This document shows positions 20,006 through 42,744 of a stretch of DNA of 64,000 bases, one piece after another. The DNA is from Bacteroidales bacterium (lineage in GTDB: Bacteria; Bacteroidota; Bacteroidia; Bacteroidales; P3): the NCBI GenBank assembly GCA_024681475.1, contig JAILAT010000001.1, positions 62,001-126,000 of the forward strand. Direction: 5' to 3'. Every line of letters starts with the position of its first letter. The stretch's first letter is position 1. The position numbers and the translations under genes are program-made. The notes beneath the pieces were generated by a model that was given only the letters and a program-made list of their open reading frames with translations, was not told the origin of the DNA and did not search any database.

Positions 20006-21235
20006 ATGAAAAAACAAGTGATAGTGTTGGCGCTGTGCGCAATGTTGCCCCTGACGGCGCTATGCCAGTCCAAGCAGAAGCACACCCAAGCCAGCAGCGA
20101 GCGGATGACCGAAATGTCCATACGTGGCGAGTGGATTGACCAACCCAGCGACAGCCCTAAATACCAGAGCGACAACGGCCATGAAACCCAAAAGATGGCA
20201 CAGCCCAAAGCCAAACGTGCGAAAAACGTCATCATCATCATCGGCGACGGCATGGGCACGGCACAAGTCTACTCCTCGATAGTAGCACAGCGCGGCAAAT
20301 CCAACTTCCTGCGTTTCCCCTTCTCAGGGTTCTCGCGCACCTACTCGAACAACAAATACACCACCGACTCGGGCGCCGGCGGCACGGCCATCGTCGGAGG
20401 CAAGAAGACCAACAACAAATTCGTCGGCATGGCTGCCGACAGCACCGACATACTCTCGTTCCTGGAACTGGCACATGCCCAAGGCATGGCCACAGGCTTT
20501 GTGGTGACCTGCAGCGTCCTCGACGCCACGCCGGCAAGCACCTACGGGACAGTGCCTTACCGCAAAATGTTCGACACACTGAGCGACCAGTTTTCGCATA
20601 TCCCCTTCGAGGTGATGATTGGCGGCGGCCTGCATGAGTTCCTGCCCGAGAACCGCAAGGACGGCAAGCACCCGCTCGACACGCTGGTGCAACGCGGCTA
20701 CGAAGTGGCCTACTCCCTCGACGCGCTGCGCAAAGCGCAGAGCAACAAGCTGGTAGCCTTGGTCAGCGAACCTTTCTACACGGAGCGTGCCTCGGTGCGC
20801 GGACCCCTGCTGCAGGTGGGCGTGGAGAAAGCGCTGAACATCCTGACGCAGAACAAAGAAGGCTTCGCCATGATGATCGAAGGCTCGCAGATAGACTGGG
20901 CATGCCACAACAACGATGCCGAGCACATGGCCGAGGAGATGGCCGACTTCGAAAAGATGCTGCAGATAGTGCTCGACTTCGCCGAGCGCGACGGCAACAC
21001 GCTGGTTGTCGTCACCGCCGACCATGAGACCGGCGGCCTGGTGCTGCTGAGCGGCGACATCGAGAAAGGTACCAACGAATGCAAATACATGACCGGCGAC
21101 CACTCCGGTGTGATGGTGCCCGTCTTCGCCTACGGCCCTGGCGCCGAGCAATTCTCAGGAATACAGAACAACACGGAAATATTCGCCAAATTGTTCAAAG
21201 CCATGGGCAAGACAATGCCCGCCACCAAGAAATAA
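20006..21235 (+). CDS. alkaline phosphatase family protein
   Basis: 409 aa; NVIIIIGDGMGTAQ, TTDSGAGGTAIVGGKKTNN (catalytic Ser), VVVTADHETGGLVLL. Confidence 0.92.
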   Translation: MKKQVIVLALCAMLPLTALCQSKQKHTQASSERMTEMSIRGEWIDQPSDSPKYQSDNGHETQKMAQPKAKRAKNVIIIIGDGMGTAQVYSSIVAQRGKSNFLRFPFSGFSRTYSNNKYTTDSGAGGTAIVGGKKTNNKFVGMAADSTDILSFLELAHAQGMATGFVVTCSVLDATPASTYGTVPYRKMFDTLSDQFSHIPFEVMIGGGLHEFLPENRKDGKHPLDTLVQRGYEVAYSLDALRKAQSNKLVALVSEPFYTERASVRGPLLQVGVEKALNILTQNKEGFAMMIEGSQIDWACHNNDAEHMAEEMADFEKMLQIVLDFAERDGNTLVVVTADHETGGLVLLSGDIEKGTNECKYMTGDHSGVMVPVFAYGPGAEQFSGIQNNTEIFAKLFKAMGKTMPATKK

Positions 21236-21255: not shown

Positions 21256-22059
21256 ATGAAGAGAAACATCCTGCTTATCATCATAGCGCTGGGCATGGCC
21301 CTGCCTGCCACGGCACAGATGAAGTTTACACAAGACACGCTGAAGTGTCCGCTGGTGGGCTTCAACTTCGGCACCGTGTTCCCCTCGGCCAAACTGTCGA
21401 GCGACGGGGGCATGTATGACCTGTACAAAGCGCCATACCTGAACTTCGGCCTCGACTTCGGATACAAATTCAAGAGCAACTGGATGGTGGAACTCGACGG
21501 CAACCTCATGTTCGGCAGCGACAACCTGAAAAACCGTGAGGCCCGCATGGGCGACCTCTACACCAACGACCACACGCCTATCATCATCGGCACCAACGGC
21601 ACCGACGCCGAGGTGACATGCCACAACCGTGCACTGATGCTGCGCGTAGGCGGAGGACGCATCTTCAAGGTGAACTCCCGCAACCCCAACTCGGGCATCG
21701 TGGGACGCGCCTACGTGGGATTGCTGCAGCAGAAGACCATCTTCGCCAAGAACGCGGTCAATGCCCCTCAGATCGACGGCGACTACTCACGACTGTATGA
21801 CCACAAACGCCGCGGACTGATGCTGACCGAGAGCGTCGGCTACTGGTTCATGAGCAACAAAGCCAACCTGGTGAACCTCTATGTGGCCTTCGAAGTGACA
21901 GAATGCTGGACCAGCCCCACCCGCAACTACGAGATTGACTACCTGATGGGGCTGCAGGGCAAAGACGAGAACAGCTACTTCGACCTGCTGTACACTTTGA
22001 AAGTGTGCTGGATGTTCCCCCTGAAAGGCAAAACAGCCTACGACCTTTACTACTATTAA
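21256..22059 (+). CDS. secreted/outer-membrane hypothetical protein
   Basis: Signal peptide MKRNILLIIIALGMALPATAQ at ATG 21256; beta-barrel-like alternating pattern; the longer ORF start at 21079 overlaps the phosphatase gene. Confidence 0.65.
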   Translation: MKRNILLIIIALGMALPATAQMKFTQDTLKCPLVGFNFGTVFPSAKLSSDGGMYDLYKAPYLNFGLDFGYKFKSNWMVELDGNLMFGSDNLKNREARMGDLYTNDHTPIIIGTNGTDAEVTCHNRALMLRVGGGRIFKVNSRNPNSGIVGRAYVGLLQQKTIFAKNAVNAPQIDGDYSRLYDHKRRGLMLTESVGYWFMSNKANLVNLYVAFEVTECWTSPTRNYEIDYLMGLQGKDENSYFDLLYTLKVCWMFPLKGKTAYDLYYY

Positions 22060-23662: not shown

Positions 23663-24541
23663 ATGGACGCAATAATAACATATGTCAACGGGCTGGACCC
23701 CGAATGGCAAGCCAATTACCGGCAATTTGCCCCCTCGACAGACAAGCTCAAACGTTTTCGAGACTGGGGCACGCTGCCCTATCTGCTACGCGGCATCGAG
23801 GCCAATATGCCTTTCGTGGAGAACATCTTTCTGGTGGTAGCCCGCGAGAGCCAAGTGCCACAATGGGTCGACCGTAGCAGGCTGAACATCGTGCTGCACA
23901 GCGACATCATCCCGCAGAACCTGCTGCCCGTGTTCAACAGCTGCACCATCGAGATGTTCCTGCACCGCACGCCCCGTTTGGCCGAAGAGTTCATCTACTT
24001 CAACGACGATATGTTTCCCCTCGCTCCCAGCAGCGCCGCGGACTTTTTCCCTGGCGGCAAGCCCTCCATCGGCATGTCGCGCCATCTCTTTGCCGGCAAC
24101 CTCTACAAGCAGCAATGCCGCACCTCCGACCGTATGGCCCGCAAAGCACTGGGGCTCAATCCGTCACTTCTTTTCTTGCGCCCGCAGCACATCTGCTCGC
24201 CCATGCTGAAATCACAATGCGAAGAGGCATACCAGAAGCTCGAAGCCGACATACTCGCCACCGCTTCGCCCCTCCGCACCGCCACGAACCCCAACCAGTA
24301 TCTTTTTCTGGACTATATGTACCACAAAGGACTGCTGACAGCGCGCAGACTGTCAAACAAACACATCTCGCAAGGCGTGTGGTCCGCAGAAAAGATTGCC
24401 CACTACATTGAGCATCCCCAGACCACACTCGCCTGCATCAACGACGTCGAAATGTCCGACGAACATTACAACGCCATGAAGCAAGCAATCCTCAACGCCT
24501 TCCAAAAAAAGTATCCCAACAAATCACAATACGAGCTATGA
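23663..24541 (+). CDS. Stealth-family (capsular polysaccharide phosphotransferase-like) protein
   Basis: 292 aa; CR1-like MDAIITYVNGLDPEW and CR2-like LPVFNSCTIEMFLHRTPRLAEEFIYFNDDMF. Confidence 0.75.
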   Translation: MDAIITYVNGLDPEWQANYRQFAPSTDKLKRFRDWGTLPYLLRGIEANMPFVENIFLVVARESQVPQWVDRSRLNIVLHSDIIPQNLLPVFNSCTIEMFLHRTPRLAEEFIYFNDDMFPLAPSSAADFFPGGKPSIGMSRHLFAGNLYKQQCRTSDRMARKALGLNPSLLFLRPQHICSPMLKSQCEEAYQKLEADILATASPLRTATNPNQYLFLDYMYHKGLLTARRLSNKHISQGVWSAEKIAHYIEHPQTTLACINDVEMSDEHYNAMKQAILNAFQKKYPNKSQYEL

Positions 24542-27500
24542 GTTTCCCTATCGATGCAGTGATAACCTGGGTAGACGGGGCCGACCCCGCCCATGCCGCC
24601 AAGATGCGAAAGTATGGTGGCAAATTCACCTTTGTTGACGACGATGTCGCCGGTTCGACACGCTATGCCAACAATGGTGAGATTTATCGCTGTGTGGCCT
24701 CAATACGAAAATACGCTCCCTTCATCAGGACCATCTTCATCGTCACCGACAACCAGGATCCCCACATCCCGGAAGGCAACATTCCTGTCGTGGTCGTCGA
24801 CCACAAGGACATCTTCCGCGGTCACGAAGAGCATCTGCCCGTGTTCAACTCTGTCGCCATCGAAACCATGACATGGCGCATCCCTGGCCTCGCAGAGCAC
24901 TACATTGAATTCAACGACGACTTCATGCTCTGCGCTCCTGCCACAAGAGAGGACTTCTTCGACCCTGACGGAGTGCCGGTGTGCTACACCAAGGTGTACT
25001 CCATGACCTATGTATGGCTGACCCGGATGATGAAGTTCCATGAGCATGGCCATAAAAAAGTGACTTTCAAAGGTCTGACACGAAACGGAGCCCTCCTTGC
25101 CGGCGCCAAGATGCACATGCTCAAGCTCTATCATACCCCCAGGGCTCTCAACCGCACTTTCTTCGAGCAATGGTTCGAGAAACACCCCGAGCAGATGGAG
25201 CGTAACATCTCATGCCGTTTTCGCGACGCCAACCAGTTCTCACCCGAGGAGGTATACTATGTGAGAGCGTGGAAACAGAAGAAGATCATCATCCGCAGCG
25301 CCAAGAAGCACATGTTCTATTTTGAGCCCAAGCCCAAAAAGGACTATGTGACCCGCAAGCTGGAGGAGTTGAAATCGGGCAATTGGAAATTCTGCTGCTT
25401 CAACTCGCTGGACCATGCCTCCGAGCATGACAGAGAACGCCTGCTGGACTGGATGGACAAGAATGTCAAGATGATGCTCGTGCTACTGCTGGCAGTCTTT
25501 ACGCTGACAGGATGCTCGAACCAGAGAAAATTCCTCCAGGCCGATGAGCGCACGCTGAACCGAGTCAACTACAACATCGAGATGGCCGACAGCACCTTGC
25601 AGCCCACCAAGGAAATACGCGACGCCCTCTCCGATGTGAAGCGATACACCCGCCAGAGGCCCAACAGCCGTGTACTCGGCTTCGGCCCAAGGTTGACAAT
25701 GCATATCTATTGCATGTCATCACCCCACGACACCAATTTTTTTCAAAACTATCTGCGTCGGCAGGGGCAGGCCCCAGTGATATACGACCCCGCAGCAGCG
25801 GCGCAGACAGCACAACAGATTGAATGGCTGCTGCAAACCAAGGGCTGCTTCGGCTCGACGGTGACCTACGACACCACACATCGCCGCAAATACGACGCCG
25901 ATGTCACCTACCATATCCGCGCTGCACAACGCTACATCATCAACGATGTCAGTTTCCATGCCGAATCGCGTGAGGTCAACACCCTGCTACAGGAATGGCA
26001 AAACGAGAGCCTGTTGCGGGTGGGCGACTGGTACGACCAAGACAAACTGGCACAAGAGCGCAGCCGTATCATCGACAAGCTACGTGAGAGCGGATACTTC
26101 CTGGCCTCCACCGACCTGGTGAGCTATGCGGTGGATTCCGCCTTCGAGGACCACAAGCTGAGCATCAGGCTACAGCTGCGAAACCCCGTCGTCACCAACA
26201 GCGACGGGAGCAGCCAGGCGGTAGCGCTGCGCAAGTTCCACGTTGACAACATCTACATCTACCCCAACTCGTCGGCGGCGACCAGCGGTCAGGGGGCCAC
26301 TTTCGACACGACGATATGCACCACCAAATTCCGCAACTGGCACACAGACTACAAGTTCCTCACCAACCAGCCCATGACACTCAAGCCCAAGGTGATAGCG
26401 CGCTCGCTATTCATCTTCGAAGGGCAGACCTACCGTGCCAACAACGTGGAACGCACCTACAATTCGCTGCTGAGTCTACGCAACTTCAAGTATATCAACA
26501 TCGAATACACCCAATCGCCCAACAGCAACGACAGCGTACCGCTGCTGGATGCCAAAGTGCGTCTGCTAAACGCCAAGAAACAGCGCCTTTCGGCATCGGT
26601 GGAGCTGAACAACTCATCACCCTTCGGCTCAAACTCCGAAGGACTGTCGGGTGGAGACTTCGGCATCGAGACAAAAGTCAACTACCAGAACAAGAACCTC
26701 TTCGGCGGTGCAGAGATATTCTCTGCCGAGTGGTCGCTGCTGATGGAGCTGCCCAAGTTCATCTTTAAAGACAACGACCAGAACGACGGGTCGCTGCGCA
26801 ACAACGTGTCGAGTTTTGAGCACGGCATCGACCTGTCGCTGGACCTGCCGACATTCCTTTTCCCTTTCACAGGCGACATCATGTGGCAACGTATGCGCCC
26901 GCACACAATCTTCACACTGGGTGCCAACTATCAGTATCGCAGCTACTTCGAGCGTCTGTTGGTCAACACAGGATTCGGCTACAGCTGGTTCAGCAACCAG
27001 CGCAGCCACCAGTTGCTGCCATTGGAGCTCACCTATGTACGTTTCTTCAACATCGACGACGATTTTCTGGCGCGTCTGGGCAATCTCTCCGATGCGCGAC
27101 TCAAATATCAGTACAGCAACCACTTCATCATGGATGCCCGCTACGACTACGTCTACAACACGCAGCTTTACAACACCCGCAAAGACTTCAACTATGTGCA
27201 CCTGTCGGTGGAGAGCGCCGGCAACCTGCTGGGACTGGTCAGTGCGGCGACCGACGCCACCAAGGACAGCACCGGCACCTACCAGGTCTTCGGAGTGCCC
27301 TACTCACAATATGTGCGCTTCAATGCTGAATACAAACACTATTTCTACGTGGGCAAGAAGTCGACATTTGTGACAAGGGTGATGGCAGGTTTCGGCCTCC
27401 CCTATCTCAACTCATCGGTAATGCCCTACGAAAAAAGCTTTTACGGCGGCGGCCCCACTACCATACGCGCATGGCATCTGCGCTATCTGGGGCCCGGCAC

Positions 27501-27867
27501 CTATCAGAGCGACGAAAGCAACATGCTGGAGCGCGTCGGCGATATGCAGCTGGTTCTCAACCTTGAACATCGTTTTCCGATGTTCTCCATCTTCGAAGGA
27601 GCCCTTTTCGCCGACATGGGCAACGTGTGGCTGTATCACGATTCCGAAGAGTTCCCCGGAGGGCAGTTCCGTCTGAAGGACTTCCCTTCGAACATCGCCT
27701 GCGGCATAGGCGTAGGACTGCGCGCCAACATCTCCATACTGACACTGCGTCTGGACAGCGCCATACCGCTCTACAACCCCGGCGAAGCCGCTGGGGCGCG
27801 CTGGCGTCCACAGCACTGGAAGCTGCGCCAGGTGACTCTCAACTTTGGTATCGACTATCCATTTTAA
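24538..27867 (+). CDS. fusion ORF: N-terminal Stealth-family domain (~aa 1-305) + C-terminal TamL/BamA-like outer membrane lipoprotein (~aa 306-1109)
   Basis: IDAVITWVDGADP...RYANNGEIYRCVASIRKYAPFIRTIFIVTDNQDP...LPVFNSVAIETMTWRIPGLAEHYIEFNDDF (Stealth CR1/CR2), then MMLVLLLAVFTLTGCSNQ (lipobox), POTRA-like region and surface-antigen barrel ending ...VTLNFGIDYPF. No stop between modules; ATG overlaps the upstream TGA (ATGA). Confidence 0.8.
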   Translation: MSFPIDAVITWVDGADPAHAAKMRKYGGKFTFVDDDVAGSTRYANNGEIYRCVASIRKYAPFIRTIFIVTDNQDPHIPEGNIPVVVVDHKDIFRGHEEHLPVFNSVAIETMTWRIPGLAEHYIEFNDDFMLCAPATREDFFDPDGVPVCYTKVYSMTYVWLTRMMKFHEHGHKKVTFKGLTRNGALLAGAKMHMLKLYHTPRALNRTFFEQWFEKHPEQMERNISCRFRDANQFSPEEVYYVRAWKQKKIIIRSAKKHMFYFEPKPKKDYVTRKLEELKSGNWKFCCFNSLDHASEHDRERLLDWMDKNVKMMLVLLLAVFTLTGCSNQRKFLQADERTLNRVNYNIEMADSTLQPTKEIRDALSDVKRYTRQRPNSRVLGFGPRLTMHIYCMSSPHDTNFFQNYLRRQGQAPVIYDPAAAAQTAQQIEWLLQTKGCFGSTVTYDTTHRRKYDADVTYHIRAAQRYIINDVSFHAESREVNTLLQEWQNESLLRVGDWYDQDKLAQERSRIIDKLRESGYFLASTDLVSYAVDSAFEDHKLSIRLQLRNPVVTNSDGSSQAVALRKFHVDNIYIYPNSSAATSGQGATFDTTICTTKFRNWHTDYKFLTNQPMTLKPKVIARSLFIFEGQTYRANNVERTYNSLLSLRNFKYINIEYTQSPNSNDSVPLLDAKVRLLNAKKQRLSASVELNNSSPFGSNSEGLSGGDFGIETKVNYQNKNLFGGAEIFSAEWSLLMELPKFIFKDNDQNDGSLRNNVSSFEHGIDLSLDLPTFLFPFTGDIMWQRMRPHTIFTLGANYQYRSYFERLLVNTGFGYSWFSNQRSHQLLPLELTYVRFFNIDDDFLARLGNLSDARLKYQYSNHFIMDARYDYVYNTQLYNTRKDFNYVHLSVESAGNLLGLVSAATDATKDSTGTYQVFGVPYSQYVRFNAEYKHYFYVGKKSTFVTRVMAGFGLPYLNSSVMPYEKSFYGGGPTTIRAWHLRYLGPGTYQSDESNMLERVGDMQLVLNLEHRFPMFSIFEGALFADMGNVWLYHDSEEFPGGQFRLKDFPSNIACGIGVGLRANISILTLRLDSAIPLYNPGEAAGARWRPQHWKLRQVTLNFGIDYPF

Positions 27868-27887
27868 AGAACTAATCACATATAATA

Positions 27888-28862
27888 ATGTATACATATA
27901 AAGAATTAACCGACATAGTGCAGCACATCTTCGCTGAAGAGAACTTCATTGGCGAACCCGCTGAACTCTACGAGCCGATAGACTACACGCTGGGTCTGGG
28001 TGGCAAAAGGCTGCGCCCAGTGCTGCTGTTGGCCGCCAACGACCTCTTTGGCGGAACGGTGGACAATGTCCGTGCCGAAGCAGTGGCCATCGAAATGTTC
28101 CACAACTTCACCCTGCTGCACGACGACCTGATGGACCAGTCGCCATTGCGCCGCGGCAAACCTACGGTCTACAAGAAATGGAACCCCAACACAGCCATCC
28201 TCTCCGGCGACGCCATGACAGCCATGGCATGGCGCTACATGCTGAAGAATGTGCATCAACGTCAGGCAGAGATTCTGGATGTCTTCAACGAGACCTGCAT
28301 GATGATATACGAAGGACAGCAATACGACATGAACTTCGAGACCCGCAACGATGTGACCATACCTGAATACATGGGGATGATCCGACTGAAAACCGCCGTT
28401 CTGCTGGCAGGAGCGCTGAAGATCGGTGCCCTTTGTGCCAATGCCGACGACGCGGCAATCGAAGCGCTTTACAATTTCGGTATCGAGACAGGCTTTGCCT
28501 TCCAACTGCGCGACGACCAGCTCGACGCATGGGGCGACACCGCCACTTTCGGCAAACAGACCGGCACAGATATCAAAGACAACAAAAAGACCTACCTCTA
28601 TCTGCGTGCGCTGGAAAAAGGTGACGCAAAACAGACGGAACGTCTGCGCACACTCTTCTCCAGCACCCCCGACGACCCCAGCGCCAAGATTGCCGAGGTG
28701 CTGGACATCTACGCCCAACTGAACATCGCCGACGACGTGGAGAAAGTCATTGCCGAGCACGAAGCTGCCGCACTACGACATTTGGAGACCGCCGAAAAGT
28801 TCACCGGCGAGGCCCTGACGCTTCGTCAAGTGGCCCAAAAACTGGCAGGAAGAAAGGTGTAA
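27888..28862 (+). CDS. polyprenyl (isoprenoid) diphosphate synthase
   Basis: 324 aa; GGKRLRPVLLL, first DDxxD-type LLHDDLMDQSPLRRGKPT, second Asp-rich FQLRDDQLD. Confidence 0.93.
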   Translation: MYTYKELTDIVQHIFAEENFIGEPAELYEPIDYTLGLGGKRLRPVLLLAANDLFGGTVDNVRAEAVAIEMFHNFTLLHDDLMDQSPLRRGKPTVYKKWNPNTAILSGDAMTAMAWRYMLKNVHQRQAEILDVFNETCMMIYEGQQYDMNFETRNDVTIPEYMGMIRLKTAVLLAGALKIGALCANADDAAIEALYNFGIETGFAFQLRDDQLDAWGDTATFGKQTGTDIKDNKKTYLYLRALEKGDAKQTERLRTLFSSTPDDPSAKIAEVLDIYAQLNIADDVEKVIAEHEAAALRHLETAEKFTGEALTLRQVAQKLAGRKV

Positions 28863-41450: not shown

Positions 41451-42744
41451 GTGTCAAGTAATTAAGGTAATGTTCCAAGCTGCAGCCGCTGCAGTTGTCG
41501 GCAGGATCGTGATAGCCGCCATAGCGCTGTCCCATGGAAAGCACATAGATGGCTGGCACCACCTGGGAGAAATAGTAGTGGTCGCTATTGGGTGAATTCT
41601 TGCGGTGCCGAATTTCGGGAGCCACCTCCAACGCCTTGTTCAGCAAATCCAGACGTTCCATGTGTTCCGACACCCTGGGGTCGTCGGCATTGAAGACCAT
41701 CAGACCCTCGTCGCCTCCACAGAAGAGGTCGATGTTCACCAGCAGGCGTACTTTGTCGAAATCAAAGAGAGGATGTTTCACAGCGTATTCCGAGCCTTTC
41801 AGACCGGCTTCCTCACCGCTGAAGAAGCAGAACACGTGGGTGTAGTGAGGATGCTCCTTGACGGCGACACGGGCCAGGTCGAGCACCGCTGCCACACCGC
41901 TGGCATTGTCATGGGCGCCATAGAAAATGACATCGTCGCCCATGGTGCCAAGATGGTCATAATGAGCTGTGTATACAATCATTGTGTCGCATTCGCCTTG
42001 AACATAGCCACAGACATTCTGTGTAGCATATTGGGGATGAAACTAAGTGAAGATGCCACAATGCATCGTGCGTATCTTTTTGGGCATCTTGCTGGCCAGC
42101 ACCTCGATGTAGGCATAGCCATGCTCGTAATCGGTAAAAGCGGGTGAAAAGGTGTTCATCTCATTCATGCCCACCATTACACCTTTGGAGTTGAAGGAGT
42201 TGCGACGACGCAGATTGCTCAACGACGACTTGAACGCCTTCTGCTCCTCTTCGTCTTTGGGCTTGAAGCTGGTGGCGTCGACATAGACAACCACGTCGGC
42301 AAGCAGCGACTTGTTCTTTTTCAAGAACTTGGAGAGTTTCGTGCCGTCGACAAGTATCTCGGGAGGGACGTTGAGCACCTCAAAAGTGCCATACAACGAA
42401 GCAGAGAACGGCGCCACGCGATACTCTTTGAAGGGCTCCAGCGTCACACCATTGACGCTGAGCGAGAGGGGCCCCTCCATCGAGAAGGCACTGAAGGTAT
42501 AGGGCTGGTAATAGTCATCGCCCAAAGGACTGACGCCCAACCGTTTCAGTTCGCTGCGAAGATAGGCGGCAGCGATGGAGTCGCCATGATAGGAATAGCC
42601 ACGGCCATAGAACTGCGGCGAAGTAAGCCGCTCCAGCACCTGACGGGCATAGAGGGTGTCCTGAGCCTTCAAGGAGTTTAAACCAGCGATTAAGACAAAT
42701 ACAGCTAACGCAATAATATTCAATACTTTTCTCATAACAAACAT
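41428..42744 (-). pseudogene. M28-family aminopeptidase interrupted by one in-frame TAG (42043-42045)
   Basis: 42043-42744 encodes signal peptide and N-half; 41428-41982 encodes VYTAHYDHLG...GAHDNASGVAAVLDLAR...CFFSGEEAGLKGS. Same frame throughout: ...MHCGIFT-TAG-FHPQYATQNVCGYVQGECDTMIVYTAHYDHLG. Confidence 0.85.

Follow-up and report, generated by a model that had tools for sequence, protein, structure and literature searches.

Lipoprotein signals are taught as N-terminal features. A bacterial precedent for cleavage of one chain at an internal signal peptide, with two envelope proteins as the products, is the cytochrome b/c1 polyprotein encoded by fbcH of Bradyrhizobium. Among the families met at the present locus, the Stealth phosphotransferases include CpsY of Mycobacterium tuberculosis, in which the arginine of conserved region 3 (CR3), R419, is essential (PMC10668966). 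In Flavobacterium johnsoniae, tamL could not be deleted, and apparently the lipidation Cys of its product could not be changed either (PMC12045153). The locus described here joins these two families in one reading frame. It lies in a 64,000-nucleotide stretch of the genome of a gut-type Bacteroidales bacterium, referred to below as the window (Table 1).

A complete Stealth domain and a complete TamL share one frame

A single uninterrupted frame of 1109 codons with an ATG start spans positions 24538 to 27867 on the forward strand, as the initial annotation had claimed, and the motifs it quoted for both parts were found in place. The Stealth phosphotransferase occupies residues 1 to ∼313 of the 1109-amino-acid chain and TamL residues 317 to 1109. 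In stand-alone Stealth relatives the C-terminus lies no more than a few residues from window residue 313, and the frame therefore reads as two whole genes joined at their boundary with neither partner truncated. Since two full-length family matches fall in one frame, a chance frame is taken as ruled out. The arrangement of two complete proteins in one frame, with a signal and its cleavage site between them, is the one expected of a polyprotein cut at an internal signal.

Pfam matched Stealth_CR1 (PF17101; residues 3 to 29; E value, 4e−12) and CR2 (PF11380; residues 42 to 147; E value, 5e−26) in the first part. There was no Pfam match to CR4 at an E value of 0.001; a C-terminal helix is common to the window and its relatives. 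When the window protein was aligned with 14 stand-alone Stealth relatives, the invariant columns included the key residues of the family, among them R229, which aligns with R419 of CpsY and is conserved in the window and all 14 relatives. An AlphaFold model of this part was confident to about residue 310, and Foldseek matched its fold to the structures of CpsY and GlcNAc-1-phosphotransferase.

The second part matched the NCBIfam TamL model NF052279 with 645 bits (cut-off, 400) over residues 317 to 1109 and profile positions 2 to 747 of 747, and both the Omp85 barrel (PF01103) and POTRA (PF07244) were matched within it. A lipobox, LTGC, precedes the first POTRA domain, its Cys codon at 25513 encoding Cys326. 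The signal peptide of a TamL is N-terminal, whereas here ∼300 in-frame Stealth residues precede it, and it would be N-terminal only if translation started internally. From its sequence, the TamL part was filed as TamL and the whole chain was not. A search for tamB elsewhere in the genome, proposed as a check on the fusion, located it at G000:C63:46189-47508, in a frame of 1533 amino acids.

The Stealth-TamL join is known from one assembly, which is of metagenome quality, 87% complete and in 63 contigs. Those neighboring genes that related genomes share are intact, and an assembly full of indels throughout is therefore unlikely. As a separate observation, an M28-type peptidase gene at positions 41456 to 42744 on the reverse strand has one mid-gene in-frame TAG with coding sequence open on both sides; this is either a decayed gene or a base error.

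TABLE 1 Features of the Stealth-TamL locus in the window and of the WaaA::TamL fusions in related genomes
Feature	Coordinates	Strand	Evidence or remark
Alkaline phosphatase-like gene, left synteny anchor	20006..21235	+	PF00245; order same in L107, L109, L122
Outer-membrane-type protein, directly before waaA in relatives; C-terminus FPLKGKTAYDLYYY	21256..22059	+	Sequence, synteny
O-antigen ligase/Wzy_C, first gene of the block replacing waaA	22129..23655	+	PF04932, E value 5e−11; not at this place in relatives
Stealth1, 292 aa	23663..24541	+	PF11380, E value 1e−28; ATGA stop/start overlap with Stealth2, 24538-24541
Stealth2 domain of the fusion, complete	24538..25476	+	PF17101/PF11380; invariant residues; relatives end here; AlphaFold and Foldseek to CpsY/GNPTAB
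Putative internal lipoprotein signal MDKNVKMMLVLLLAVFTLTG; n-region MDKNVK Stealth-derived	25453..25512	+	Sequence; MDKNVK aligned with Stealth C-termini, e.g., WMDK in L052
ATGATG at junction	25471..25476	+	+1 frame TGA at 25472-25474
Mature TamL: lipobox Cys, POTRA region, Omp85 barrel	25513..27867	+	NF052279 645 bits, PF07244, PF01103
Polyprenyl synthetase, right synteny anchor	27888..28862	+	PF00348; order same in relatives
In-frame WaaA::TamL fusions	L110:5085-8804, L111:5227-8877, L112, L113	L112 and L113 on reverse strand	Main argument rests on these

The junction carries an internal lipoprotein signal

The last codons of Stealth2 also serve the TamL signal as its charged n-region. The in-frame ATGs that the initial annotation had placed at 25453 and 25471 are both present, and a third lies at 25474. 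Initiation at 25453 would give a 20-residue signal with two lysines, and initiation at 25471 or 25474 a signal lacking any positive charge; MDKNVKMMLVLLLAVFTLTGC alone would make a normal lipoprotein signal. The ATGATG is close to an ATGA gene overlap, of which it may be a relic or near-form. A search for a Bacteroidetes-type promoter inside Stealth2 gave no match. The joining of a cytosolic transferase to an outer-membrane lipoprotein through a lipobox had been called topologically odd. This description does not hold, because Stealth and WaaA both act on the cytosolic side, and the order of cytosolic domain, positive residues, h-region, lipobox and periplasmic domain is the normal N-in/C-out arrangement.

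A Wzy_C-Stealth block stands in the place of waaA

The gene upstream of tamL was waaA/kdtA, encoding the Kdo transferase, and not a Stealth gene, in all loci of the genus that were fetched. The order in these relatives is alkaline phosphatase, outer-membrane protein, waaA, tamL, polyprenyl synthetase and ExbB, and the window differs solely in having Wzy_C/O-antigen ligase, Stealth1 and Stealth2 in place of waaA. None of the relatives examined had Stealth at this position, and no foreign base composition was visible in the Stealth block. Conserved Stealth1-Stealth2 pairs occur with unrelated neighbors elsewhere, sharing the same 4-nt ATGA overlap at L042:2214-4084 and lying side by side at L039:5102-6960; the pair is possibly a transferable two-gene module.

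Searches and synteny revealed neither waaA nor kdsB anywhere in the genome. Contig C10 has the conserved site of kdsB, flanked by a nucleoside kinase gene and a SPOR/HU-type gene, but kdsB itself is cleanly absent from it; comparison of G000:C10 (L266:1117-1183) with L243 and L267 showed its excision from a conserved kinase-kdsB-SPOR-trmB block. Even with the genome at 87% completeness, the two losses are a gap-free replacement and a gap-free excision on assembled contigs. Both lpxC and tamB are present. With waaA gone and kdsB excised, Kdo addition appears to have been lost in this lineage while lpxC was kept, and the genome may carry a Kdo-free lipid A together with a Stealth-type phosphoglycan, an unusual envelope.

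WaaA::TamL fusions recur in related genomes

In-frame fusions of WaaA to TamL were found at 4 of 142 distinct waaA-tamL junctions surveyed in the family, in genomes G104 and G078 from the genus of the window and G187 and G188 from another genus. Each of the four genomes has one TamL match, and the genes around the fusions look intact. The waaA stop and the tamL start are close together or overlapping in many species, and this tight overlap explains why fusions arise at this place. Separately, in part of the genus (L008, L010 and L014) there is no ATG near the tamL signal and a probable TTG start overlaps the last waaA codons. A WaaA tree built with FastTree placed the changes to fusion at four separate points, an approximate count from a quick tree. 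The nearest relative of G188 on this tree is unfused, and all four fusions are singletons, which also fits short-lived or merely tolerated joins.

The distance from the conserved C-terminal motif of WaaA to the lipobox Cys is 46 nt in G187, 46 nt in G188 and 55 nt in G078, the three shortest of 112; it ranges from 63 to 197 nt (median, 93) in 108 unfused junctions. These short distances indicate that the three joins lost the TamL start and its charged n-region, not a stop codon alone, and the last K/R residues of WaaA stand in for that n-region. In G187 the sole start near the signal is a GTG, from which the signal would be 13 residues long and uncharged; in G188 it is an ATG that would leave about 11 residues. 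Accordingly, neither genome has, as read from its junction, a plausible internal start that gives a charged signal. In G078 the only candidate is a GTG lying about 30 codons ahead of the Cys, and possible TTG starts are kept in G104.

No second Stealth-TamL fusion was found in 190 genomes of the family or among the 14 nearest Stealth loci, and querying the junction against 395 genomes of the order brought up no new fused frame. Long frames near tamL in G087, G072, G138, G121, G129, G143, G136, G105 and G402 were set aside, their extensions being noncoding readings of an overlapping upstream gene. A 1235-residue frame in G390 was likewise not a fusion, with stops between folC and tamL. A literature search found neither a transferase-TamL fusion nor an internal lipoprotein signal. 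The wider pattern, in which transferase-TamL polyproteins that carry the lipoprotein signal internally arise repeatedly, did not turn up in the literature searched and is a more interesting result than the window fusion alone.

Proposed processing of the fusion and alternative explanations

The favored explanation, to which a probability of roughly 0.5 is given, is that the fusion is a polyprotein on which Lgt and LspA act at the internal lipoprotein signal, so that TamL is set free in lipidated form and the transferase stays behind with a tail anchor. A Wzy_C-Stealth1-Stealth2 block took the place of waaA directly upstream of tamL, and the boundary between Stealth2 and tamL merged into a single reading frame, whose main product would be the 1109-amino-acid polyprotein, translated as one chain. 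Its Stealth domain would fold in the cytosol, and the C-terminal Stealth residues DKNVK would act as the positive n-region for the hydrophobic stretch that follows, which would enter the Sec translocon N-in/C-out. Cys326 would then be lipidated by Lgt, with LspA cutting before it. One product would be lipidated TamL of the ordinary kind, bound for the outer membrane. The other would be a putatively active Stealth enzyme with the remnant signal helix at its C-terminus, presumably tethered to the inner membrane. Part of the TamL may in addition come from initiation within the frame, at ATG 25453. Because tamL and, apparently, its lipidation Cys are essential in F. johnsoniae (PMC12045153) and each of the WaaA::TamL genomes has one TamL, TamL would have to be released from such fusions. 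Processing by LspA had already been proposed in the initial annotation; it gains from four independent WaaA::TamL fusions, two of which lack a usable internal start, and is weakened by the in-frame ATGs at 25453, 25471 and 25474 that the window keeps. The accompanying suggestion that glycan synthesis is coupled to envelope export found no direct support, and the Stealth partner occurs in this genome only.

Those retained ATGs are also the basis of a second explanation, a nested in-frame gene, which is doubtful but the strongest of the alternatives. TamL would then be made mainly from ATG 25453 (or 25471/25474), and the full-length fusion would be a by-product mainly supplying Stealth, its tail useless or degraded. 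The lysine-bearing signal from ATG 25453 suits such a start, a Shine-Dalgarno site is not needed for initiation in Bacteroidetes, and relatives start tamL within the end of waaA, probable TTG starts included. Against it, there is no stop after Stealth, so each ribosome translating Stealth2 still makes the fusion; the two later ATGs yield an uncharged signal; and G187 and G188 have the same layout with no usable internal start. An assembly or consensus error, or a very young frameshift, is less probable again. In this case the real or ancestral state would be a pair of separate genes overlapping by 4 nt (ATGA), as the neighboring Stealth1 and Stealth2 do. The TGA of the +1 frame exactly overlaps ATG 25471, and the join is seen in one genome only, both as expected from such an event. 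The neighboring genes shared with relatives are intact, however, and the Stealth frame aligns to its natural end, which confines any shift to the final few bases; a TamL starting MMLVLLLAVFTLTGC would lack a charged n-region, and the four independent WaaA fusions indicate that such joins are not rare errors. Stop-codon loss, an alternative raised at the outset, is too simple for the three WaaA fusions in which start and n-region are gone, and is a candidate for the window, given the overlap of the +1 TGA with ATG 25471. Least credible by far is an uncleaved bifunctional protein reaching from the cytosol to the outer membrane. It has the single frame in its favor and nothing more; a textbook lipobox lies between the parts, the residues between the signal and POTRA are too few for a linker across the periplasm, and lipidation of TamL is apparently essential in F. 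johnsoniae (PMC12045153).

If the processed-polyprotein explanation applies generally, LspA would act as a polyprotein processor. Several Bacteroidales lineages would then obtain an essential TamL only by cutting it off the C-terminus of WaaA or Stealth, with the transferase left signal-anchored, a proposition held at even odds. Fusions with two different transferases arose independently, and this suggests an ability of the cell to cleave polyproteins of this kind where a lipoprotein signal lies inside them. Were a large cytosolic enzyme with TamL as its tail the only source of TamL, then Sec, Lgt and LspA would have to tolerate hundreds of folded residues ahead of the signal, and a presumably essential protein would depend on it. 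Annotation pipelines that seek lipoproteins at N-termini would miss such cases.

Comparison with known systems

The TamL part resembles TamL as modeled by NF052279 and Fjoh_1464 of F. johnsoniae (PMC12045153) in its POTRA domains, Omp85 barrel, lipobox and a TamB encoded elsewhere; in contrast to Fjoh_1464, its signal is internal, behind a 300-residue cytosolic enzyme, and has no n-region of its own. The Stealth part shares CR1, CR2, the CR3 arginine and the fold with CpsY of M. tuberculosis (PDB 8J2N; PMC10668966) and GNPTAB, but the chain does not stop at its C-terminus, where a lipoprotein signal and then TamL follow. The closest counterparts are the WaaA::TamL fusions of G104, G078, G187 and G188, which lie at the same genomic place and likewise join a cytosolic glycan transferase to TamL by way of an intact internal lipobox; their transferase is the Kdo transferase WaaA, whereas the window has a Wzy_C gene and a Stealth pair. 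With the cytochrome b/c1 chain of fbcH the fusion has in common the layout of a single bacterial chain with an internal signal, at which it would be cut into two envelope proteins. There, a c-type cytochrome follows a non-lipoprotein signal; here, the putative cut would be made by LspA and the part released would be an outer-membrane lipoprotein.
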